Counted from the stretch's first letter, positions 1-11,006 are shown. The stretch: 64,000 nt of DNA from Fibrobacter sp. UWT2 (GCF_900142545.1 NZ_FRBF01000002.1:1-64000), one strand, 5' to 3'. The notes: generated by a model from the sequence alone, not told the origin. A program made the numbers and translations.

Positions 1-131
1 GTCATATTTTAGAAAACCTTGCAATATTTTCACAGGGTAGAAATCAGTTTTTCCCAATAGTTATGCGGGCTGGGCGGGATTTTAAGGGACGACTATATTA
101 AGCCCGACTTCTAAAAAACGAGGTTGGTTTG

Positions 132-3100
132 ATGGAAAAAAATATTCTCACGAATAGATTTTGTGGTGTACTTGTATGCACCATTATGTTGTTTGTAGCA
201 CAGGCTTTTGCCGCCGCCTGGGACGGAAAGTCTATGTCCCGTCCACAGCAAGATGAAAACGGTGTGTTTATCATTACGAGCGCAGAAGAACTAGCTTGGT
301 TCTCTGACTCTTCGAATAGTGGCTACAAAATTTGGGGTAAAGCTCAAGTGTATGTGATGAATGCTAGGCTTGATGCGGACCTTGATATGGGTAATGAACT
401 CTTTATCCCTATTTGTGGCGGTAGTGGTGATAAATTGTTCAACGGAACTTTTGATGGAAATGGTCATACCATTTCCAACCTGAGAATAGATGGTGCCGAA
501 ATTGCTAAAAAGGTTAACCAACCTAAATATGCTCAGAATGTGGGCCTTATTGCGGCAATGAGTGGTGGTACCGTCAAGAATCTGACTCTTGAAAATGTAG
601 ATATTCAAAGTTCTTCCAATATCGGCCTTGTGGGTTCTACGAATCAGATTTCTGTTGGCGCGGTTGTTGGTTGGCAACAGAATGGAACGATCGATGGTTG
701 TGCTGCTTCCGGTTCTATCCAGACTAGTGGAAAGGGACAAGGCGTCGGTGGCATTGTTGGAAACGTTCATGGGGGAACGATTTCAAATTGCCTGAGTGAA
801 GTGAATATCCGTGTTTCTGGTAACGACGCTCAAGTAGGTGGTATTGTTGGGCTTGTCAAGAAGAATAGTACGGTAACGGTTAAATCTTGTGTTTATGCAG
901 GCGAAACACTTGAAAGTATGGCAAATGGTGCTGTTGGTGCCATTGTAGGTAAACAGGTGGATGGTGATACCAAACTCAATGTTGAAGATTGTGTTTACGA
1001 TTCCGATGTTGCCAAGTCTGGTGTTGGAGCTGTTAAAAAAAGTGCTAATGTGAGCGATGAATCGGTTGGCGCTTCCAATGTGAATATGGAAGAACATATT
1101 TGCGCCTTGAATGGTGGCAAAATTGAAGATGGGGAATGCAGTGTAAGTTCTCCGTGGTCCGTGGGTGTGTCTGGTGTATCTTTAAACGGCTCTGATGGCT
1201 TTAAGGTTATCTTTAATGCCAAGAGCGGTGCATTTGGTGAAAATGCGAAGACGAAGAAAGTCCTTGCCAAGGGTGCAAAGATTACCGCTGAAGAAATTAG
1301 CGTTCCGTCTCATGCCGACAGTGCTTTTGCCGGTTGGTCTTTAGATAAAAACGCTACCAAACCCGATGAAGATTTGGGTGCTTTGAAGGGACAGACGACG
1401 GTTTATGCGGTGTGGTATCCGTATTTTGATATCACCTTTGATGCTGCAATGGGTGCTTTCGCTGATAGTTCCAAGACGATGACTATAAAGGTCGCCAAGG
1501 GTGATATGGTGTCTGCGGAAGGTTTCACCTCCTTTGACCCTGTTACCGATGAAAATGGCGATAAGTACTATTTTACAGGCTGGTCTACTGAATCTCATGT
1601 GTTTGGATCCGAAGATGAAATTTCGGATAAGGATACTCTGCATTTGGATGACTTGACTGCAACAGAAAACATGACTCTTTATGCTTCTTGGACGAAAGCA
1701 ATCACCTATACTGTTGTCTACGATGCAAATGGTCATGGCAAGACAAAGATTGATTTTGTCAACGTGAATAAGGGTGAAAAGTTGACCGAACCGCCTGCGC
1801 CGACACCGGATGACGGTTATAAGTATACGGGCTGGTGCAAGGATCCGTCATGCAAAGAAGCCTTTAAATTTGATACTGAAATTGATGACAACTATGTCCT
1901 GTATGCAAATTGGGCTGCGGTTGACTATGAAATCACTTATGAGTTGAACGGTGGTACTAATAACAAGGCTAATCCGGCACTATATAATGTGACTTCTGAA
2001 ACGATTGTACTTGCTGACCCTGCAATGGAAGGTGCTAAATTCATCGGTTGGTTCTATGACGAAGCCTTTACTGAAAAGGCTACGCAGATCACTCAAGGTT
2101 CGACCGGAAACAAGACTTTGTTTGCCAAGTGGGAAACCGAAGTCTATGTCATTACCTATGTGGCTGATAACAATTCTGATGGTACGGCCTCCAGTGACAA
2201 GAAGGCTTATAAAGAATCCGTCACCTTGAAGGGCGCAGGCTTCTTTACTCGCGAAGGTTATACTCAAAATGGTTGGTCTTTGACCCCTGATGGTGATAAG
2301 GCTTATGATTTTGGCGCAACCTATGCTGATAATGCAGATTTGAACCTGTATCCGCATTGGGTGAAGGATCCTGTGGTAAGACATTTTGGTGCAGTGACGA
2401 TTACTGAATATTCCGACAAGACTGTTGCTAAAATTGATGGTGAATACACGGATCCTGATACTATTGAAATTAAGAAGGATATCCTTGTGGATCAGGTGGT
2501 GTTCAATAGAAAGTTCACTATCGGTAAGATGTCCACGATTATGCTTCCGTTCTCGATTGATACTTCTAAAGTGAAGGGTGGAACGTTCTATAAATTCAAT
2601 AGAGTTGTTGAAGAAAATGGTGTTCGTAAAGTTAAGATTGGTTATGTGAAAACACAGAACCTTGGTGCAAATACACCGTATTTGGTGATGCCGACCGCAG
2701 AAACTCTCACGTTTAGTGGTAAGGTGACTTTTAACACGGATGTCAATCCTATCGAAGTATTGACAAATAATTCTTGGGAGTTCATTGGAACCAGGGCTTA
2801 CAAATTGTTTGATGATGATCCTGAATTGGGTGACATCTGGGGCTTTGCGGGAACCGCTCAGGAAGGCGTTAAAGTTGGTCAATTTGTAAGGGCTGGAAGT
2901 GATGTGAAGATTAAACCGTTGCGAGCCTATTTGGTGGAGCATAAGAATGTTGCTTTGGCTAAGTCTGCGGGAGAATCCTTGAATTCTGCAAGTTGGATTG
3001 TTTCAAATGAACTTGCTGTGGAAATTGTTGATGAAAACGATAACGTTATTGCAACCGGAAAAATGGATGCTACAACAGGCGAGATTCGTTTGAACAGCTG

Positions 3101-3188
3101 GTTTGATATGAGCGGTCGTAAATTGAATGCTAAGCCCACGACCCGTGGAACATATTACTATAATGGTAAACGAGTAATTATTAAGTAA
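132..3188 (+). CDS. Secreted GLUG / InlB B-repeat surface protein
   Basis: A secreted repeat protein of 1018 aa, probably a cell-surface adhesin or structural protein. Residues 1-27 form a signal peptide ending in AFA. Residues about 75-310 carry GLUG-type repeats (GGIVGNVHGG, GGIVGLVK). Residues about 355-745 hold about five InlB B-type repeats, each with an FxGW or YTGW core and ending in LYAxW or LFAKW. The last 30 residues contain FDMSGRKL and RGTYYYNGKR, a C-terminal module also seen in the GH43 protein here. I chose the ATG at 132 rather than an in-frame TTG at 129, because GAGG lies 8 nt upstream. The stop is 11 nt before the first small peptide gene and sits inside its ribosome-binding region, so co-transcription is likely. 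The gene is more AT-rich than its neighbours. The adhesin role is inference. Confidence 0.85.
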   Translation: MEKNILTNRFCGVLVCTIMLFVAQAFAAAWDGKSMSRPQQDENGVFIITSAEELAWFSDSSNSGYKIWGKAQVYVMNARLDADLDMGNELFIPICGGSGDKLFNGTFDGNGHTISNLRIDGAEIAKKVNQPKYAQNVGLIAAMSGGTVKNLTLENVDIQSSSNIGLVGSTNQISVGAVVGWQQNGTIDGCAASGSIQTSGKGQGVGGIVGNVHGGTISNCLSEVNIRVSGNDAQVGGIVGLVKKNSTVTVKSCVYAGETLESMANGAVGAIVGKQVDGDTKLNVEDCVYDSDVAKSGVGAVKKSANVSDESVGASNVNMEEHICALNGGKIEDGECSVSSPWSVGVSGVSLNGSDGFKVIFNAKSGAFGENAKTKKVLAKGAKITAEEISVPSHADSAFAGWSLDKNATKPDEDLGALKGQTTVYAVWYPYFDITFDAAMGAFADSSKTMTIKVAKGDMVSAEGFTSFDPVTDENGDKYYFTGWSTESHVFGSEDEISDKDTLHLDDLTATENMTLYASWTKAITYTVVYDANGHGKTKIDFVNVNKGEKLTEPPAPTPDDGYKYTGWCKDPSCKEAFKFDTEIDDNYVLYANWAAVDYEITYELNGGTNNKANPALYNVTSETIVLADPAMEGAKFIGWFYDEAFTEKATQITQGSTGNKTLFAKWETEVYVITYVADNNSDGTASSDKKAYKESVTLKGAGFFTREGYTQNGWSLTPDGDKAYDFGATYADNADLNLYPHWVKDPVVRHFGAVTITEYSDKTVAKIDGEYTDPDTIEIKKDILVDQVVFNRKFTIGKMSTIMLPFSIDTSKVKGGTFYKFNRVVEENGVRKVKIGYVKTQNLGANTPYLVMPTAETLTFSGKVTFNTDVNPIEVLTNNSWEFIGTRAYKLFDDDPELGDIWGFAGTAQEGVKVGQFVRAGSDVKIKPLRAYLVEHKNVALAKSAGESLNSASWIVSNELAVEIVDENDNVIATGKMDATTGEIRLNSWFDMSGRKLNAKPTTRGTYYYNGKRVIIK

Positions 3189-3199
3189 GGGAGTGCAAA

Positions 3200-3340
3200 A
3201 TGAATTCTGAAATGGTAGAAAAGAAAGCATACGTTTCTCCTTCTATGGAAGAAATTGATATAGCGTGTCAGAGCATTCTATGTGGCAGCTGTGATGGAAA
3301 TCCCGACTGTATGAGTACTGAAATTGAGGGGACACCCTAA
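3200..3340 (+). CDS. Candidate RiPP precursor peptide 1 (46 aa, four Cys)
   Basis: A 46-aa ORF with a good ribosome-binding site (AAGGGAG, 7 nt upstream). The N-terminal half carries KKAYVSPSME, residues 8-17, with Y11 and P14 forming a YxxP motif. The same motif in lasso-peptide leaders is bound by PqqD-like recognition proteins, and one is encoded 2.8 kb downstream. The C-terminal half has Cys at 23, 28, 31 and 37 and an acidic, Gly/Pro-containing tail (SCDGNPDC, then EIEGTP). The stop overlaps the start of the next peptide as TAATG, so the two are translationally coupled. The leader/core division is inference; there is no obvious TxG lasso cleavage signal. It could instead be a small regulatory protein, but the neighbourhood favours a modified, exported peptide. 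Confidence 0.7.
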   Translation: MNSEMVEKKAYVSPSMEEIDIACQSILCGSCDGNPDCMSTEIEGTP

Positions 3341-3483
3341 TGACGCAAAATAACATTAAAGAAAAAAAAGACTATTTGCCTCCTTCGATGGAAGTAGTTT
3401 CCCTTCGTGAGCAAATTCCGCTGATTGCTTTTAGCGGCGGTGAATTCAACTTAAACGAATCCGAAAAAAAATACTTCGCCTAA
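3340..3483 (+). CDS. Candidate RiPP precursor peptide 2 (47 aa, Cys-free)
   Basis: A 47-aa ORF starting inside the stop codon of peptide 1 (TAATG), with GAGGGG 8 nt upstream at 3326-3331. It shares the leader-like block with peptide 1: KKDYLPPSME, residues 9-18, with Y12 and P15. The C-terminal half is completely different: no Cys, a hydrophobic stretch IPLIAF, a Gly-Gly at 33-34, then EFNLNESEKKYFA. Conserved N-terminus plus divergent C-terminus is the usual signature of leader/core precursors matured by one enzyme set. The double Gly could be a leader-cleavage point (inference). An intrinsic terminator follows 7 nt after the stop. Confidence 0.7.
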   Translation: MTQNNIKEKKDYLPPSMEVVSLREQIPLIAFSGGEFNLNESEKKYFA

Positions 3484-3490
3484 TTTATCA

Positions 3491-3514
3491 GGGACCGAAT
3501 TCGGTCCCTTTTTT
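3491..3514 (+). terminator. Intrinsic terminator between the small peptides and the enzyme genes
   Basis: Perfect 18-nt palindrome GGGACCGAATTCGGTCCC followed by six T. It lies 7 nt after peptide 2 and 15 nt before the nucleotidyltransferase start. In peptide-maturation operons such an element keeps precursor mRNA in excess over enzyme mRNA. Confidence 0.9.
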
Positions 3515-3515
3515 C

Positions 3516-3523
3516 TATCTTTG
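3516..3523 (+). promoter_or_regulatory. TAnnTTTG promoter-like element, 5 nt before the start codon
   Basis: TATCTTTG matches the -7 box TAnnTTTG known from Bacteroidota promoters. It lies 5 nt before the nucleotidyltransferase ATG, which has no Shine-Dalgarno sequence, so a leaderless transcript restarting after the terminator is plausible. No clear -33 TTTG is visible. Confidence 0.45.
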
Positions 3524-3528
3524 CGGCC

Positions 3529-4647
3529 ATGGGTTTGGCTTTGAAAAAGACGGATTTGCTCCTGTTTGAACTTTTGCGGTTTGCGCTCGATACGACCGGC
3601 GAGTTAAAGGGGCTAGAAAAGGCGCCTTCGGAAGAAGATTGGAAGGCTGTATATAAACTGGCAAAGCGCCAGTCGGTATTGTCGATTGCGTTTTTGGGAA
3701 TCAAGAAACTTCCTGAAAATTTTCGTCCAGAAAGAAAGATGCTTTTGCGCTGGTCCCTCGATGCCGAGGGTACTGCGGGCATGAATGCTCTTTTGAACCA
3801 AGAGGCTGCCCGCCTGACGCAGATTTTTGACGGTGCTGGCCGTAAGAATGCGGTGCTCAAGGGCCCTGCCAATGCAAGGCTTTATCCGGATCCGCTGAGT
3901 AGGCAGTGCGGCGATATCGACATCTGGGTCGAAGGTGGTCGCGACAGCGTGTCTAAATTGCTTTATGAACAGAATCTGCTAAATGCCGATACCGACGACC
4001 ATGCCTATTCCCAACATCATATCCATTTGCCCAAGAATAAAGATGGCGTTACGGTGGAGGTGCATTTCAAGCCTGCATCGGGAATCCCGTTCCGCAATGG
4101 ATCGTTGCAAAAGTTCCTGAACGAAGAAATCCGTAAGGCTGAAAAGGTACCCGAGGGCTTTTATTCACCGTCGGTCAAGTTTGCGCTCGTGATGCAAATG
4201 GCGCACTTGCAACAGCATTTTTTGAGTCGCGGGCTTGGTCTTAGGCAGTATATGGATTACCTGATGCTGCTTAGGCATTCTACCGAAAGCGACCGCAGCG
4301 CCGCGTTAGCTGTCATGAAACGTTTGAGCATGATGCGTGCCTGTGGTGCCGTGATGTGGGTGCTGCAGGAGGTTCTCGGACTTGAACGAGACTTGATGCT
4401 TTGTGCTCCCGATGCCGTCCGCGGTAGGCGCTTATTGAAGTTGGCGCTTGAGGGTGGAAATTTTGGCCAGTATGCGTTGGAACCTAAACCCCGCAATGTT
4501 TTTGTTCGTTGGTTCAAGGATCGCATGAATGCCTTGTCTTGGCTTACCTTTGACCCGGTGAATGCCATCTTTAAGGAACTCAAGTACTGGCGTGCAACGA
4601 TTTCGCTGATTCCTTTGCGTATTAAGCGCAGGAGAATTGCCCTATGA
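3529..4647 (+). CDS. Nucleotidyltransferase family protein (NTP_transf_5-like) of the peptide cluster
   Basis: A 372-aa protein of the uncharacterised nucleotidyltransferase family seen in lasso and other RiPP clusters. The diagnostic segment is at about 109-133: VLKGPANARLYPDP, then a conserved Arg and GDIDIWV, whose DxD pair would bind metal. A second region, VEVHFKP, follows. The family is thought to modify a small molecule or peptide by nucleotidyl transfer; its exact chemistry is unproven. The 3' end overlaps the kinase gene as ATGA, so the two are coupled. There is no ribosome-binding site, and a promoter-like box sits just upstream. The substrate here is probably the peptide or its phosphorylated form (inference). 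Confidence 0.8.
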   Translation: MGLALKKTDLLLFELLRFALDTTGELKGLEKAPSEEDWKAVYKLAKRQSVLSIAFLGIKKLPENFRPERKMLLRWSLDAEGTAGMNALLNQEAARLTQIFDGAGRKNAVLKGPANARLYPDPLSRQCGDIDIWVEGGRDSVSKLLYEQNLLNADTDDHAYSQHHIHLPKNKDGVTVEVHFKPASGIPFRNGSLQKFLNEEIRKAEKVPEGFYSPSVKFALVMQMAHLQQHFLSRGLGLRQYMDYLMLLRHSTESDRSAALAVMKRLSMMRACGAVMWVLQEVLGLERDLMLCAPDAVRGRRLLKLALEGGNFGQYALEPKPRNVFVRWFKDRMNALSWLTFDPVNAIFKELKYWRATISLIPLRIKRRRIAL

Positions 4648-5570
4648 TTTCTTCTGGAACTTACAAGGTTGCGGAACATGTGTTTAAGGTGTCCGCAGCT
4701 GCTGACCTTTGCGATAGTTTGTTTAGCGAATGCATGGACAACTACGAACCGTTTGCGGTTCCTGCGGCGCAAAATTCCGAATATCTTTTTAAAGTAAATG
4801 TGGAATGCGGCGAAGCTCCGGAGTACACCGAAGAATTGTGCCAAGATGAAGAAGGCCAGCAGATTATTTGTGGGCTTACTGCTGGTAAAAAATCTGTTTT
4901 TGATTTTCGCCTGCAACATAAGTTGACGGGTGTCCTGGTTTGCTCCGAGGATTACAGAATGGCCACGTTGTTTGTCCCGAGGGATGAACCGTTGGCTTTG
5001 CTCCGGTTTGCGGTGAACAACGCCATGATGGTCTTGTATGCCATTGCGACGGCCCCTTACAATACGGCTCTGTTCCATGCAGCTGTCGTGAGTTATGATG
5101 GTAAGGGCTATATGTTCCTGGGCAAGAGCGGCACTGGCAAGAGTACGCATGCAAGGCTTTGGCTAAAGTATAACGAAGGCTCGGAACTTTTGAATGACGA
5201 CAACCCGGTGGTTCGCATTTTTGATGGCGCACGAGCGGTTGTCTACGGCTCGCCATGGAGCGGCAAGACGCCTTGCTACAAGAATCAGGAATTTGCACTG
5301 GGCGGTTTTGTGATGCTTTCGCAGGCTCCGTACAACAAGATCGAACGCTTGCGTGGCGTGCGCGCCTATGCGGCCTTGGTCCCTTGCATTTCGGGCAAAC
5401 GCTGGGAGGCTGTCATTGCTGATGGCTTGCACAAAACCGAAAACGCTCTTGCGATGAATGTCCCTGTGTGGTATTTGGAATGCTTGCCCGACGAAGAGGC
5501 GGCGAAGTTATGCTGTGCTTCTGTCAGTGAAAGCCGATCCCGGATCAAGTCCGGAATGACATGCGGATAA
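4644..5570 (+). CDS. HPr-kinase-like (HprK/PadeK-type) peptide kinase
   Basis: A 308-aa HprK-related kinase. The P-loop GKSGTGKST lies at about 159-167, preceded by FHAAVV and followed by LNDDNPVV at about 181-189, the HprK acidic motif, and then GSPWSGKT. It lacks the N-terminal HPr-kinase domain, like kinases that phosphorylate lasso peptides on the C-terminal Ser (paeninodin-type). It overlaps the nucleotidyltransferase by 4 nt and precedes the S26 peptidase by 4 nt. Its last 12 or so residues are encoded by a palindromic REP-like sequence (5534-5562), so the C-terminus looks recently extended. Peptide 1 has Ser and Thr near its C-terminus. The target is inferred. Confidence 0.8.
   Translation: MISSGTYKVAEHVFKVSAAADLCDSLFSECMDNYEPFAVPAAQNSEYLFKVNVECGEAPEYTEELCQDEEGQQIICGLTAGKKSVFDFRLQHKLTGVLVCSEDYRMATLFVPRDEPLALLRFAVNNAMMVLYAIATAPYNTALFHAAVVSYDGKGYMFLGKSGTGKSTHARLWLKYNEGSELLNDDNPVVRIFDGARAVVYGSPWSGKTPCYKNQEFALGGFVMLSQAPYNKIERLRGVRAYAALVPCISGKRWEAVIADGLHKTENALAMNVPVWYLECLPDEEAAKLCCASVSESRSRIKSGMTCG
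5534..5562. repeat. REP-like palindrome embedded in the 3' end of the kinase gene
   Basis: Contains CCGGATCAAGTCCGG (5540-5554), a 5-bp stem with a 5-nt loop, flanked by GATCC and AATGACA. Sequences of this kind are familiar as dispersed intergenic repeats in many bacterial genomes. Here it is read in frame and ends the coding region. Confidence 0.6.
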
Positions 5571-5574
5571 GGAA

Positions 5575-6027
5575 ATGCAGAAGAAAGACGATGAGTTGAT
5601 TCTTTCGGAAGCCATTCGCCTAGTGGGCGAGGGCGTCGAGGTGATTTTCCCGGTGAACGGGAGAAGCATGCGCCCCTTTATTGAAGGTGGCCGTGACAGT
5701 GTTCTTCTGGTCAAGCCCGTTGACGTGAAGCCTATGGACATTGTGCTTGCCCGCGTCATCGGCGGAAATTATGTTGTTCATAGAGTCCTTTCGATAGAGG
5801 ACGGGTGTGCAACGCTTATGGGTGACGGCAATTTGCAGGGACGAGAAATTTGCGAATGTAAACAAATTTATGCTAAAGTAACGCATGTTGTGCATCCAAA
5901 TGGTTACAAAAGATCTCTTTACACGCCTTTTATACAATTTGTCCAAAAATTGTGGGTCAAATTTTTACCTTTGCGTCGTTATTTGCTTAAATTATATAGA
6001 GTCTACATTCGAATCCGGAATTTCTAG
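5575..6027 (+). CDS. S24/S26-family peptidase (signal-peptidase-like), possible leader protease
   Basis: A 150-aa protease-like protein. GRSMRPF places a nucleophilic Ser at 31. VVHRV places His69 where most bacterial type I signal peptidases have Lys, as in the SipW/archaeal Ser-His type. GDGN at 83-86 matches the conserved GD(G/A)N box. There is no N-terminal membrane anchor; the basic, aromatic C-terminus (about 112-150) may associate with membrane. Related proteins occur next to PqqD-like genes in Bacteroidota peptide clusters. It may cut the leader from the two precursor peptides, a role otherwise unfilled because the exporter lacks a C39 domain and no transglutaminase-like protease is present (inference). 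It starts 4 nt after the kinase gene, with GGAAA as a weak ribosome site. Confidence 0.75.
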   Translation: MQKKDDELILSEAIRLVGEGVEVIFPVNGRSMRPFIEGGRDSVLLVKPVDVKPMDIVLARVIGGNYVVHRVLSIEDGCATLMGDGNLQGREICECKQIYAKVTHVVHPNGYKRSLYTPFIQFVQKLWVKFLPLRRYLLKLYRVYIRIRNF

Positions 6028-6041
6028 AAGGAGAGTACACC

Positions 6042-6311
6042 ATGCACATCAAAAAAGGATTTGTTCTGCGCGAAGTTTGCGGTGAACAGGTGATTATGGG
6101 CGAAGGCGTTGGCGCTCTCGATTTCGGGAAGCTCCTTTGCCTCAACGAAACGGCGTCTTGGCTTTGGAAGCGCGCAAGCGAACTCGGCGAATTCACGATA
6201 GTGGCTTTGGCCGAAGCTCTGTGCGACGAATATGATGTTGCTCCGGATGATGCGCTGACCGATGTGATGAGCATTGTCGAGCAGTGGAAAAACGTGAACG
6301 TTGTTGAATGA
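6042..6311 (+). CDS. PqqD-like RiPP recognition element (lasso B1-type)
   Basis: An 89-aa stand-alone PqqD-fold protein, the usual length for lasso B1 proteins. Visible features are an N-terminal beta hairpin (FVLREVCGEQVIMGEG), the LNETASWLWKRA helix typical of the family, and a C-terminal helical pair ending in IVEQWKNVNVVE. PqqD-like proteins bind leader peptides and present them to modifying enzymes, commonly through a YxxP motif like that in the two upstream peptides. It has a strong ribosome site (AAGGAGAG, 7 nt upstream) and overlaps the exporter gene by 4 nt (ATGA). This is the strongest single indicator that the cluster makes a RiPP. Confidence 0.85.
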   Translation: MHIKKGFVLREVCGEQVIMGEGVGALDFGKLLCLNETASWLWKRASELGEFTIVALAEALCDEYDVAPDDALTDVMSIVEQWKNVNVVE

Positions 6312-7930
6312 GATACCTTTCGTGGCTGTGGAATAAAACCGGCGGTTTCCGCCTGAATATTGCGCTCCGCATTGTATTTGGCGTGGGGCGAATCTCGCTT
6401 GGGCTGTTAATGGTATGGCTCAGCAAGCGTTTTATAGATGAAACAATTCGCACGGGTAGTCAAGACGACATCGTGCAAATGATTGCACTGCTTGTGGCAA
6501 CGGTCGTGGGCGCGATTGTTTTGCGTATCCTGTTTTATTATATGACGAATGTGGCAATGGTTCGTCAGTCGAATCGCTTGCGCCTGCAGGTCTTTGAAGG
6601 CTTGTTCCTGCGTAAGCTTTACGCGGGAGTGGAACTGCATTCGGGTGATGTGGCGTCTAGGCTTTCGAAAGATATCGAGTCGGTGTCGACCACAACCATG
6701 GAAACTTTGCCGCAAATGATTGTGACGGCGATACAGCTGGTGGGCGCGTTCCTTTTGATGCGCTGGTTTGATCCGCGGCTCGCTTGGGCGTTGCTGTTGC
6801 TTACGCCGGTGGCGATTGTGCTCGGTAAGCTGGTGTCTCGCAAGCTCAGGAACATGACGCTTGCGATTCGTGAGCGCGAATCCAAAATCCAGATGCAGGT
6901 GCAAGAGGGTGTAGAACACAACGTGCTCATGCGTTCGCTCGAAAGCGAAAACTGGGTGGCGGACCGCCTGAGTGACATGCAACAACACTTGGAAAGCGAT
7001 GTGTTGCGCCGTACGCGGTTTACCACGCTTTCCCGTTTTGCGCTCGGGTCTGCCTTTGGGCTGGGCTATTTGCTCGCCTTTATTTGGGGCGGCCTCGGGC
7101 TGCGCGATGGGGCGATTACCTTCGGTATGATGACGTCCTTCTTGCAGCTGGTGGGCCAGATTCAGCACCCGATTCTTTCGATTTTGAACATGGTGCCGCA
7201 AGTGGTGCATACTACGGCGAGCATTGACCGCTTGGAAGATCTTGAAAAATCCAAGGAACCCGAAGTGGACGGAACGCCTGTGGCGCTTGAAGGCTCGCTC
7301 GGGGTTCGACTCGAGAACCTGCATTTTGGCTATGCGGCGGGCCGGCACGAGGTTTTGGAAGAATTCAGTCACGATTTTGAGCCTGGCTCCAAAACGGCGA
7401 TTATGGGCAAGACTGGTGCCGGAAAGACGACTTTGTTCCGGCTGCTGCTCGGCTTTGTAAGGCCTGATAGCGGGCGAATGCTAATTTATTCAAATTCCGA
7501 GGTGTGCGCGATTGGCAAAGAGACCCGCACGAACTTTGTGTACGTACCGCAGGGCAATACTTTGCTGAGCGGGAGTGTTCGCCTGAATTTGCAGTTGGCT
7601 AAGCCCGATGCGAGCGAACATGAAATGATGCAGGCGTTGCACGCGGCGTGCGCTGACTTTGTGCTTGATTTGCCCGATGGCTTGGATACAGAAATCGGCG
7701 AGCGCGGTCGCGGCTTGAGTGAGGGCCAGGCGCAGCGAATCGGAATTGCCCGCGGTCTATTGCGGCGCGGGAACGTTTGGCTTTTTGACGAGGTGAGTTC
7801 TTCGCTTGACGAATCGACGGAGCGCGAATTGTTCGAAAGACTTTTTGCGACTTACCCCGACAAGACCATGATTTTTGTGACGCACCGTTCGGCCATGTCC
7901 GAAATTTGCGACGAAGTCGTTAGATTATAA
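6308..7930 (+). CDS. ABC exporter of the peptide cluster (fused membrane and ATPase domains)
   Basis: A 540-aa half-transporter with an N-terminal six-helix membrane domain (about 15-300) and a C-terminal nucleotide-binding domain. Walker A GKTGAGKTT is at about 367-375, signature LSEGQAQRIGIARG at about 469, Walker B VWLFDEVSSSLDE at about 490, and switch His in FVTHRS. All catalytic motifs are intact. There is no C39 peptidase domain, so leader removal must be done by another protein, possibly the S26 enzyme. It is the last gene of the operon; about 200 nt separate it from the GH74 gene. It most likely exports the matured peptide and may also give self-protection. Confidence 0.85.
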   Translation: MRYLSWLWNKTGGFRLNIALRIVFGVGRISLGLLMVWLSKRFIDETIRTGSQDDIVQMIALLVATVVGAIVLRILFYYMTNVAMVRQSNRLRLQVFEGLFLRKLYAGVELHSGDVASRLSKDIESVSTTTMETLPQMIVTAIQLVGAFLLMRWFDPRLAWALLLLTPVAIVLGKLVSRKLRNMTLAIRERESKIQMQVQEGVEHNVLMRSLESENWVADRLSDMQQHLESDVLRRTRFTTLSRFALGSAFGLGYLLAFIWGGLGLRDGAITFGMMTSFLQLVGQIQHPILSILNMVPQVVHTTASIDRLEDLEKSKEPEVDGTPVALEGSLGVRLENLHFGYAAGRHEVLEEFSHDFEPGSKTAIMGKTGAGKTTLFRLLLGFVRPDSGRMLIYSNSEVCAIGKETRTNFVYVPQGNTLLSGSVRLNLQLAKPDASEHEMMQALHAACADFVLDLPDGLDTEIGERGRGLSEGQAQRIGIARGLLRRGNVWLFDEVSSSLDESTERELFERLFATYPDKTMIFVTHRSAMSEICDEVVRL

Positions 7931-8132
7931 GAGATACATTCGAATTCCCTGACGCTCGTTGTATACTGAGAAATCGGTAAAGGGGCGTTTTTGGGGGAAT
8001 TTTAAGGGTGTTGAAAAGCTAAAAACGGATTTTTGCCGCATAAAGTGATTTTTTCGCCGTTTTTTGCCCCTGAAATATATTTTTGAATTGGATGCATGGG
8101 CCTGTTGTCCATGGTTGTTTAGGGATGAATTT

Positions 8133-11006
8133 ATGAAAAAAGGATTGTTTGGTGCTTTTGGACTTAGCCTGGCCGCTATCATCGGCATGCAGGCGACTGC
8201 CGCATACTCTGCCGAAAAGGCGGCCGATTTCAGCTGGAGCAACGTGAGCATGGGCGGGGGCGGATTCGTCTCCGCCGTGATAGCGTCTCCGGTCGACAAG
8301 GGACTTTTCTATGCCCGCACGGACGTGGGCGGCGCGTACCGCTGGAACGAATCGACTGCCCGCTGGGAATCGATGATGGACTGGGTCGATGTTTCCGAGC
8401 GCGGCCTTTTGGGAATCGAGGCCATTGCCGTTGATCCGGTCGAGTCGGGCGTTGTGTATATGGTGGCGGGTACCAGTTACTGGAACAACGGCCGCACGGC
8501 GTTTCTCCGCAGTAGCGACAAGGGCGAATCCTGGGAAGTGATTTACACCTGGGACGAAGACGGTACCAAGGGGGCGAAAGTGGCGCGCTTTGGTGCACAC
8601 GGCAACGGCATGGGCCGCGGAAACGGCGAAGCCTTGGCGGTCGACCCCAACGATTCCAAGATTATGTTCTACGGCTCCAAGAACAAGGGCCTCTGGAAAT
8701 CGACGGATAACGGTTCGAGCTGGAGCCATGTGGATGCCTGGACCAAGGCGGCCGGGAGCGATACGACTTGGAATGGTTCGGGCTTCAGCTTTGTGCAGTA
8801 CGCTCCGGGCAGCTCCAAGGTGCTTTACGCCGGATTCTTGCGCGAAGGGACGACGGCCAAGGGCACATTCGAAAACGTGTTTACCTCGACCGACGGCGGT
8901 GCAAGCTGGAAGGCGCTCCCGATTCCGGATTCGCTGCGCAGCACGGCCGGCGGGAGCATTGTGCGCTTGATGCCGCAGCGTGCGGTGATTTCGGGCGACG
9001 GAAAAACGATGACGGTGACTTTTGCCGATGGTGCGGGTCCGCATTCCATGATGTGGGACGAAGGCTGGGGCATGATTTATGACGGCTTTGGCCGCGGTGC
9101 GGTGCTGCAGCTTGATGTGGCTTCGGCGACTTGGTCCGACGTTTCTCCGGAAAACTTCCTGGACGAAGGCGGCGATGCCAAGTACGACAAGGTGGACGTG
9201 AAAGGCATGGTCGACTGCGAGGCTGCTGGCGGTACCGGCAAGACTTGCGAAGAATATTACCCCTACATTGCCCCTTATGGCGGTATTGCTATCAATCCGA
9301 AAAATGCCAACGAAATGGTCGTGACGACCGAAGGCTATCGTGGACCGCAGTTCTGGTACACGGCCACGAGCGATACCAGCGGCAAGTGGAGCGACCAGTG
9401 GGGTACTAACATTTACCACACGACCGATGGCGGCAAAACCTGGATTGCAAGCTTCAAGTATTACTGGATGGAAGGCGGTGTGTATCCGACGACCAAGCAG
9501 ATGGATGCCAATGGAATTGGCTGGATGCATAACGGTTCTATTCACTGGTCCGGAAGCGTTGCCATGGATCCGTTCGACAACAACCGCGTCTTTGTGACTT
9601 CGGGTAACGGCATTTTCCGCTGCGACAACCTGAGCGATTATGTGTATAAGGAAGCGGAGAATTCTTGGGAAGAACCGCAGCTCACGATGAATCAGGTGTG
9701 GCATTTCTCGGCGCATGGCGTCGAAGAAACTGTGCCTTTTGAAGTAGTGAGTATTCCGGGCGGCCCGATGGTTTCGATTATCGGCGACTACGACGGATTC
9801 CGTCACGATGACATCGCAAAATATCCCGCCTTTAGGCACCAGACGAATGTGGGTGGCTCTAATGTATCGCTGGGCACGACGCAGGGCCTTGCTTATGCTC
9901 CCAAGAGTGGCAAATTGGCCAAGGTGGCTGACAAGCGAGCCTACGAGGGCCAGTACAATGCAATTCCCATTGCCCCGGTGCAGTATTCCCTTGACTCGGG
10001 TAAGACTTGGACTGTTGAGACCTATACAGGGCCTGACGAAAAAGCCGCTAAGGGCACGGTAGCTCTTTCGGCAAAAGGTACTTACACCATCTGGGTTCCG
10101 ATGGAAGGAACGACCGATGTCTATCGCAATTACAACGGCACGACTTGGGAAAAGGTTTCAGGAATCGATAATTCTGCCTACGTGGTGGGTGACCCTGAAA
10201 ATGATGACGTGTTCTACGCTTACACTAAGGCTGACGGCAAGTTCTACAAGAGTGCCGATGCGGGCGCAAGCTTCAAGGCTGTGAGTACGCCTGGTGAAAG
10301 CGCGTTCAAGAAGTTCCGTGCCATTCCGGGCTTTGAGGGCGATTTGTGGTTGCCAGTCGCTATTCAGGATCCGTCGAACGGTACGCCGGCAAGCGGAAAG
10401 CTGTTGCATTCAACCGATGGAGGTGCCACTTGGGTTGCGGTTGAAGGTGTCGGTTACTGCGAAGCGGTGGGTTATGGCGCTCCCAAGGAAAAGGGCGGCT
10501 ATCCGGCGATTTACGTTTTCGCAACAGTCGGTAAAGTGACGGGCGTATTCGGCTCCGACGACAAGGGTAAAACTTGGACTCGCGTGAACGATGACGGTCA
10601 TGAATATGGCGGCCTTGCCAACGGTGAATTCGTGATGGGCGACATGAATACCTACGGCGTGGTGTACATGAGTACGGCGGGCCGCGGCATTGCTGCCCGC
10701 GTGCCGAGCGATTGGAACATGGGAACTTCGAGTTCCGAAGGGACAACGAAGGTTGCTCCGTCTGCAAAGGCGATTGCTTCGGCCTCGGTAACCTATGCGA
10801 ACGGTAACCTGGAACTGCACTTGAATGCAACCGTTGCCCGAGTTAGCGTGTTCGACATGAAGGGCAAGAAGATTTCTAGCCGCTATTACAGCAGCTCTGC
10901 CTCGGTGCCGCTGCGCGAATTGGTGCGCGCCAAGGGCAGCTATTTTGTTCGAGTCGATAACGGCAAGAAGGTGCTGTTTGCAAACCGCGTGATTGTGACG
11001 CGATAA
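8133..11006 (+). CDS. GH74 family secreted xyloglucanase
   Basis: A 957-aa secreted enzyme. Residues 1-27 are a signal peptide (cleavage near AYSA). The start of the mature part, WSNVSMGGGGFVSAVIAS then YARTDVGGAYRW, is the GH74 signature; Asp64 is the expected catalytic Asp. Many Asp-box/BNR-like repeats (TDGGATWV, SDKGESW, TDNGSSW) mark the two seven-bladed propellers. The C-terminal 80 residues (VSVFDMKGKKISSR to the end) form a T9SS-like/Fibrobacter tail. Endo-xyloglucanase activity fits a plant-fibre degrader. I chose the ATG at 8133 with AGGGA 8 nt upstream; an upstream in-frame start at 8064 would add 23 non-signal residues. A TATATT box lies at about 8076. A terminator follows. Confidence 0.92.
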   Translation: MKKGLFGAFGLSLAAIIGMQATAAYSAEKAADFSWSNVSMGGGGFVSAVIASPVDKGLFYARTDVGGAYRWNESTARWESMMDWVDVSERGLLGIEAIAVDPVESGVVYMVAGTSYWNNGRTAFLRSSDKGESWEVIYTWDEDGTKGAKVARFGAHGNGMGRGNGEALAVDPNDSKIMFYGSKNKGLWKSTDNGSSWSHVDAWTKAAGSDTTWNGSGFSFVQYAPGSSKVLYAGFLREGTTAKGTFENVFTSTDGGASWKALPIPDSLRSTAGGSIVRLMPQRAVISGDGKTMTVTFADGAGPHSMMWDEGWGMIYDGFGRGAVLQLDVASATWSDVSPENFLDEGGDAKYDKVDVKGMVDCEAAGGTGKTCEEYYPYIAPYGGIAINPKNANEMVVTTEGYRGPQFWYTATSDTSGKWSDQWGTNIYHTTDGGKTWIASFKYYWMEGGVYPTTKQMDANGIGWMHNGSIHWSGSVAMDPFDNNRVFVTSGNGIFRCDNLSDYVYKEAENSWEEPQLTMNQVWHFSAHGVEETVPFEVVSIPGGPMVSIIGDYDGFRHDDIAKYPAFRHQTNVGGSNVSLGTTQGLAYAPKSGKLAKVADKRAYEGQYNAIPIAPVQYSLDSGKTWTVETYTGPDEKAAKGTVALSAKGTYTIWVPMEGTTDVYRNYNGTTWEKVSGIDNSAYVVGDPENDDVFYAYTKADGKFYKSADAGASFKAVSTPGESAFKKFRAIPGFEGDLWLPVAIQDPSNGTPASGKLLHSTDGGATWVAVEGVGYCEAVGYGAPKEKGGYPAIYVFATVGKVTGVFGSDDKGKTWTRVNDDGHEYGGLANGEFVMGDMNTYGVVYMSTAGRGIAARVPSDWNMGTSSSEGTTKVAPSAKAIASASVTYANGNLELHLNATVARVSVFDMKGKKISSRYYSSSASVPLRELVRAKGSYFVRVDNGKKVLFANRVIVTR

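Follow-up and report, generated by a model that had tools for sequence, protein, structure and literature searches.

A peptide cassette of Fibrobacter that resembles the linear polyphosphorylated peptide pathway and adjoins surface-protein genes

What does a peptide cassette make when it encodes a leader-binding protein, a kinase, a transferase, a peptidase and an exporter, but no cyclase? The question is raised by the genome of Fibrobacter sp. UWT2, in a stretch of 64,000 nucleotides (NZ_FRBF01000002.1:1-64000, here called the window), which is the first part of contig C2 of a Fibrobacter-type genome of 3.49 Mb that is 100% complete. An earlier note, made from the sequence alone, had described positions 3200-7930 as an uncharacterised, lasso-like cassette for a ribosomally synthesized and post-translationally modified peptide (RiPP). 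Probably the cassette is instead a pathway of the type that makes linear polyphosphorylated peptides (LPP), found outside the Bacillota, whose products act together with surface proteins. The seven open reading frames (ORFs) described previously were all confirmed at their positions. The genes of 3200-7930 are thus real, but the unit begins earlier and its gene set had been incomplete, because the gene of a secreted protein, the putative partner of the peptides, had been left out. The features of the unit are listed below; a slash marks the predicted leader/core junction of each precursor.

129-3188, + strand: secreted surface-type protein of the 'c0' family, 1019 residues, with GLUG motifs, List_Bact/InlB repeats and a C-terminal module ending ..GRKLNAKPTTRGTYYYNGKRVIIK
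2460-3188, + strand: C-terminal module of the c0 protein, a β-rich domain and a tail of ~62 residues, the first strand of which is LPETIDVVI in the family consensus
2460-3480, no strand assigned: block replaced between the window genome and its close relative G029, comprising the module and both peptide genes, with 37-87% DNA identity between flanks that are mostly 90-100% identical
3200-3340, + strand: YxxP precursor peptide A, 46 residues, predicted junction ..SILCG/SCDG.., the conserved Ser being off by one
3340-3483, + strand: YxxP precursor peptide B, 47 residues, predicted junction ..LIAF/SGG..
3490-3515, + strand: intrinsic terminator (-15 kcal/mol, z -4.1) between the peptide B gene and the transferase gene
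3529-4647, + strand: nucleoside triphosphate (NTP) transferase, LppN-like (PF14907, NTP_transf_5, E=6e-45)
4644-5570, + strand: HprK-like kinase, LppK-like (weak matches to HprK-related profiles, none stronger)
5575-6027, + strand: archaeal-type signal peptidase of the S26 type, LppS-like (best match TIGR02228, E=3e-5, below the curated cut-off, a moderate identification)
6042-6311, + strand: discrete PqqD-like RiPP recognition element (RRE), LppB-like (PqqD PF05402, E=5e-12)
6308-7930, + strand: MsbA-type ATP-binding cassette (ABC) exporter, LppD-like (firm profile identification)

Kinship with linear polyphosphorylated peptides

The cassette cannot be called uncharacterised, because the same gene set has been characterised in the Bacillota, to which LPP were stated to be restricted (Popov et al., May 2026; PMC13381572). 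The two systems share five enzyme types: an NTP transferase, an HprK-like kinase, an archaeal-type signal peptidase with Ser, His and Asp, a PqqD/RRE protein and an MsbA-like exporter. Both have one or more YxxP precursors with variable C termini, and both lack a cyclase. In the Bacillota, the kinase phosphorylates Ser3 of the core multiple times, the leader is cleaved in an RRE-dependent manner by a peptidase with Ser29, His68 and Asp93, and no activity of the NTP transferase was found in the authors' host (PMC13381572). The earlier suggestion that a kinase and a nucleotidyltransferase tailor the peptide would hold for Fibrobacter.

Several residues and motifs of the cassette proteins are conserved. 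The Ser-His peptidase that had been proposed is borne out by Ser31, His69 and Asp84, which are invariant in 108 relatives (30 from Fibrobacter and 78 from Bacteroidota). The kinase keeps H145 and the segments SGTGKST (162-168), NDDNP (184-188) and PWSGKTPCY (204-212), and the NTP transferase has invariant K111-G112, G128-D129-x-D131, E177 and H179. In the RRE, N35 and D74 are invariant or nearly so; their equivalence to N33 and D70 of LppB was judged by position. A C39 peptidase domain was not found in a profile scan of the ABC exporter, and a sequence search of the Protein Data Bank (PDB) with the RRE, peptidase, kinase and NTP transferase gave no significant match. The kinase and peptidase form one protein in two loci (L074 and L036), and the peptidase and NTP transferase form one in a third (L171, Paludibacteraceae). 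These fusions link the three enzymes to one another.

Paeninodin-like lasso peptides also have an HprK-like kinase, an NTP transferase, a discrete RRE and [Y/W]xxP leaders. The recurrence of the kinase, the transferase and the YxxP/PqqD pair in such clusters speaks for a lasso product, for which a cyclase and a B2 protease would have to come from elsewhere in the genome, as the earlier note had allowed. The cassette, however, contains neither a macrolactam synthetase nor a B2 cysteine protease, and a survey of 61 genomes of the genus did not supply them. The B2 protease family PF13471 was matched in none of the 61, with control matches in Bacteroides ihuae and Haloferax volcanii. A full-length asparagine-synthetase domain (PF00733) was likewise found in none; the matches are all partial, mostly to model positions 13-82 of 354, and are most simply read as other ATP-pyrophosphatase-type enzymes. 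These searches covered Fibrobacter, and Bacteroidota were not searched. Furthermore, the cassette has a Ser-His-Asp leader peptidase of its own, so that a B2 protease is not needed. For Fibrobacter the lasso reading is largely refuted, short of a cyclase from an unrelated family, and we regard it as extremely improbable. A linear product, as envisaged in the earlier note, is probable.

Precursors and machinery in the genus Fibrobacter

The start of the peptide B gene overlaps the stop of the peptide A gene (TAATG), and the YxxP leader that the two share is present in 133 distinct Fibrobacter sequences, with the consensus KKxYxxPxMxVVxLx5LLxGS. A Ser is found 20 residues after the Tyr (the 21st position, counting the Tyr) in 116 of the 133 (87%) and within one residue of this position in 13 more, compared with a Ser frequency of 5% in the rest of the core. 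The cores themselves are highly variable. Because the leader recurs so often with a fixed Ser, and because the precursor profile has matches in 56 of the 61 genomes, these small ORFs are not due to chance. Genomes contain 0-13 precursors, mostly dispersed. The Ser is conserved as would be expected of a phosphorylation site. The pairing of YxxP leaders with a PqqD-like protein, as given in the earlier note, is supported too.

The c0 gene stops 11 bp ahead of the first peptide gene. The overlapping gene order that had been described holds in part: all of the ORFs are present, but not all overlap, and the terminator splits the peptide genes from the enzyme genes. Similar terminators occur in the close relative and in several other loci, so the level of expression probably differs between the peptide genes and the enzyme genes.

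PF14907 is present in 57 of the 61 genomes in 1-5 copies, and the kinase in 55 (in one as a fragment), in single copy apart from split copies. Profiles built from the window proteins were used to score 80 NTP transferase neighbourhoods together with the window and L003, the window genome's second PF14907 copy (G000:C5:201837-202580, - strand), which has neither a YxxP ORF nor a partner; 81 loci were counted. A kinase, an RRE or both accompany the NTP transferase in 34 of these loci, which thus hold part or all of the cassette, and 47 have the NTP transferase without the rest. The commonest order is NTP transferase, kinase, peptidase, RRE, exporter. Tandem NTP transferase genes precede the cassette in six loci (L044, L054, L064, L037, L041 and L100); in L037 a c0 gene sits between the two copies. 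In another locus (L081) the NTP transferase lies inside a run of 13 genes on the same strand.

A YxxP ORF is located within 2.5 kb of the NTP transferase in 49 of the 81 loci. Relatives with these genes and no YxxP ORF would have spoken against the pairing of precursors and enzymes. Twelve of the 34 cassettes do lack an adjoining YxxP ORF, but all 12 genomes encode others elsewhere (1-9 each), so the pairing survives. The same finding points to action of the machinery in trans, and a single machine per genome appears to serve many dispersed precursors. Two genomes that are each at least 94% complete (G001 and G013) lack the kinase, the NTP transferase and the precursors together. The NTP transferase and precursors tend to occur in the same genomes (Fisher p=0.001, a statistic that ignores the kinship of the genomes).

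A sequence of steps can be proposed, the first three of which rest on the Bacillota work and the conservation seen here. The PqqD-like RRE would bind the YxxP leader, the HprK-like kinase would phosphorylate the conserved Ser where leader and core meet, and the signal-peptidase-like enzyme would cut the leader off at this junction, in front of the Ser in the pattern LL-x-small-Ser. This cut, with the Ser at +1, is favoured because a hydrophobic residue then falls at -3, a small residue at -1 and the conserved Leu at -10, as in LppA; the alternative cut, LL/xGS, would place the Ser at +3, also as in LppA. The NTP transferase probably modifies the phosphorylated peptide further by adding another group, and the product would reach the periplasm through the exporter. 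A single machine of this kind would mature all YxxP precursors of a genome. This differs from the Bacillota system, as does the pairing of the dispersed precursors with surface-protein genes. The presence of several NTP transferases per genome, some of them alone with a precursor, and the near-universal occurrence in a genus are further differences.

The surface-protein partner

The c0 protein has an evident signal peptide. Its C-terminal module (the last ~230 residues) is common to proteins of roughly 185-1345 residues, some of them cut by locus ends, whose N-terminal parts vary and comprise GLUG/InlB repeats, an esterase and others. The c0 cluster obtained by single linkage had seemed to mix long with short proteins, a view that was given up when the alignment showed the C-terminal module to be the common part. 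No Pfam or NCBIfam family covers the module. An AlphaFold2 model of the last 262 residues, with a mean predicted local distance difference test (pLDDT) score of 82.7, is almost all β, and a structure search with the module, made against the PDB only, gave no match with E<0.2.

Six module genes were found in the window genome by single-sequence search and by profile search alike, and each of the six is followed by a YxxP ORF, 10-17 bp past its stop. The only other precursor locus of this genome (L206, G000:C2:92945), which shares its contig with the window, has its YxxP ORF 32 bp behind the gene of a PA14/C25-type secreted protein. In other genomes, 40 precursor loci were drawn from 15 genomes, away from NTP transferase loci, and at least 28 of them are preceded by a module gene, in most cases 4-39 bp away. 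We propose that the mature peptide most likely acts with the secreted module protein, and that in Bacteroidota the surface-protein context is related or different.

Many tails of first-position peptides (DDLPESLDVIII, DPDSFEVIIKDRP) resemble the first strand of the module tail, LPETIDVVI. As this likeness was first noticed by eye, each of the module's 242 nine-column windows was compared, as a control, with 129 distinct cores against a background of shuffled cores. The window with LPETIDVVI ranks first among the 242, with 17 of the 129 cores at p<0.01 (median of the windows 1, 95th percentile 5). Since some of the cores are related to one another, the independent cases are fewer, about ten by eye. 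Second-position peptides are mostly without the strand motif.

The c0 tail resembles the C-terminal domains of type IX cargo proteins (TIGR04183/PF18962) in being a basic C-terminal tail of secreted surface proteins with a DLKGRKL..KGxYYxNGKKVIVK pattern. It differs in that TIGR04183 has no match in the c0 protein of the window or in nine other c0 proteins, and in that another conserved domain, without a known fold, precedes it. The next gene downstream of the cassette (8064-11006) encodes a secreted protein with BNR/sortilin repeats, whose tail is of the Por secretion type (TIGR04183, 27 bits) and unlike that of c0.

The mimicry could mean that the peptide chaperones the secretion tail or competes with it, the copied strand filling the partner site while type IX-type export takes place. 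This would be a special form of action with the surface protein. It is favoured by the confinement of the mimicry to the first tail strand, by the literature proposal of a type IX secretion system for Fibrobacter and by a PorU-like protein in the window genome, which scores 359 bits, below the curated cut-off of 420. The motif is, however, found in only a subset of the peptides, and the tail escapes TIGR04183; we consider this role rather unlikely.

The module and both peptide genes have been replaced as one ~1-kb block between near-identical genomes. The window genome and G029, whose kinases are 99% identical, are close to 100% identical up to about position 2400, diverge across the block and recover to 80-95%, rising, past 3480. 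A fixed, repeat-rich stalk with a C-terminal module and small ORFs that are swapped as a block is also what polymorphic surface proteins with toxin-type or immunity-type partners would show. Against such partners stand the module, which is one conserved family rather than an assortment of unrelated toxin domains, and the small ORFs, which bear the RRE-binding YxxP leader and the conserved Ser. This explanation is improbable.

Several observations weigh against an LPP-like pathway whose peptides act with surface proteins. The Bacillota consensus YxxPxVLxHQxIxFETxxS is matched in its YxxP and conserved Ser but not in HQxIxFET, the junction here being LLxGS, and for this reason the system is called LPP-like and not a strict member. 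Neither precursor nor partner is found at 21 of the 81 NTP transferase loci, L003 among them, and no module gene was detected directly upstream of about a quarter of the sampled precursors. Other orthologous pairs between the window genome and G029 show no localised block, and the co-divergence of module and peptide at 23 loci, with NTP transferase divergence allowed for, is not significant (permutation p=0.12), so that co-replacement rests on one case.

The peptides might be ordinary secreted LPP, bacteriocins or signals, next to surface-protein genes as a matter of operon convenience and without contact. The absence of significant co-divergence fits such peptides, as do the widely varying cores and the Bacillota LPP, whose function is unknown and for which no protein partner has been described. 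It is harder to reconcile with them that all six module genes of the window genome and most dispersed precursors are paired, or that a strand is copied and a block replaced jointly. Ordinary LPP are a possible explanation that we take seriously without favouring it; action with the surface protein agrees better with the pairing.

Relatives in the Bacteroidota and biological meaning

The kinase profile finds more than 500 relatives. Among the best 80 kinase loci of these, nearly all from Prevotellaceae and other Bacteroidales, the order kinase-peptidase-RRE is kept in almost every one. All 20 Bacteroidota genomes tested have PF14907, and 17 of them have YxxP ORFs detected with the Fibrobacter profile, several weakly. 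The YxxP ORFs occur in two contexts: directly behind a gene whose secreted product has a tail of the ..KGIYIVNGKKVIVK type (BspA-type leucine-rich repeats, InlB repeats), or directly ahead of a lipoprotein gene (one fimbrillin-like, most without a family). In Bacteroidales KHT7 (L283/L316), a c0-like protein, a YxxP ORF and an NTP transferase form a unit as in Fibrobacter. Four loci of Prevotellaceae (L280, L282, L284 and L298) have YxxP leaders that are nearly identical (ETTREKKQYVRPQITMIPMQAE) and cores that differ; their peptides are possibly an exchangeable series. In L280 and L282 the peptide gene lies ahead of related lipoprotein genes.

The near-universal presence of the machinery in Fibrobacter, and its common occurrence in Prevotellaceae, lift the restriction of LPP-type pathways to the Bacillota. 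Beyond this distribution, the dispersed precursors, the pairing with surface proteins, the conserved Ser, the strand mimicry and the block replacement are new relative to the published LPP. The pairing offers a concrete lead on what LPP-type peptides do, in bacteria with central roles in the digestion of fibre and in the flora of gut and mouth. As there is a single machine per cell, the loss of one kinase should affect every peptide. More tentatively, the system may be one for recognition or assembly in the Fibrobacteres-Chlorobi-Bacteroidetes (FCB) group, in which surface proteins would be served by peptide ligands of their own, ribosomal in origin and phosphorylated, some copying a strand of the protein's tail, with one RiPP machine maturing all of them and the module and its ligands exchangeable between strains.

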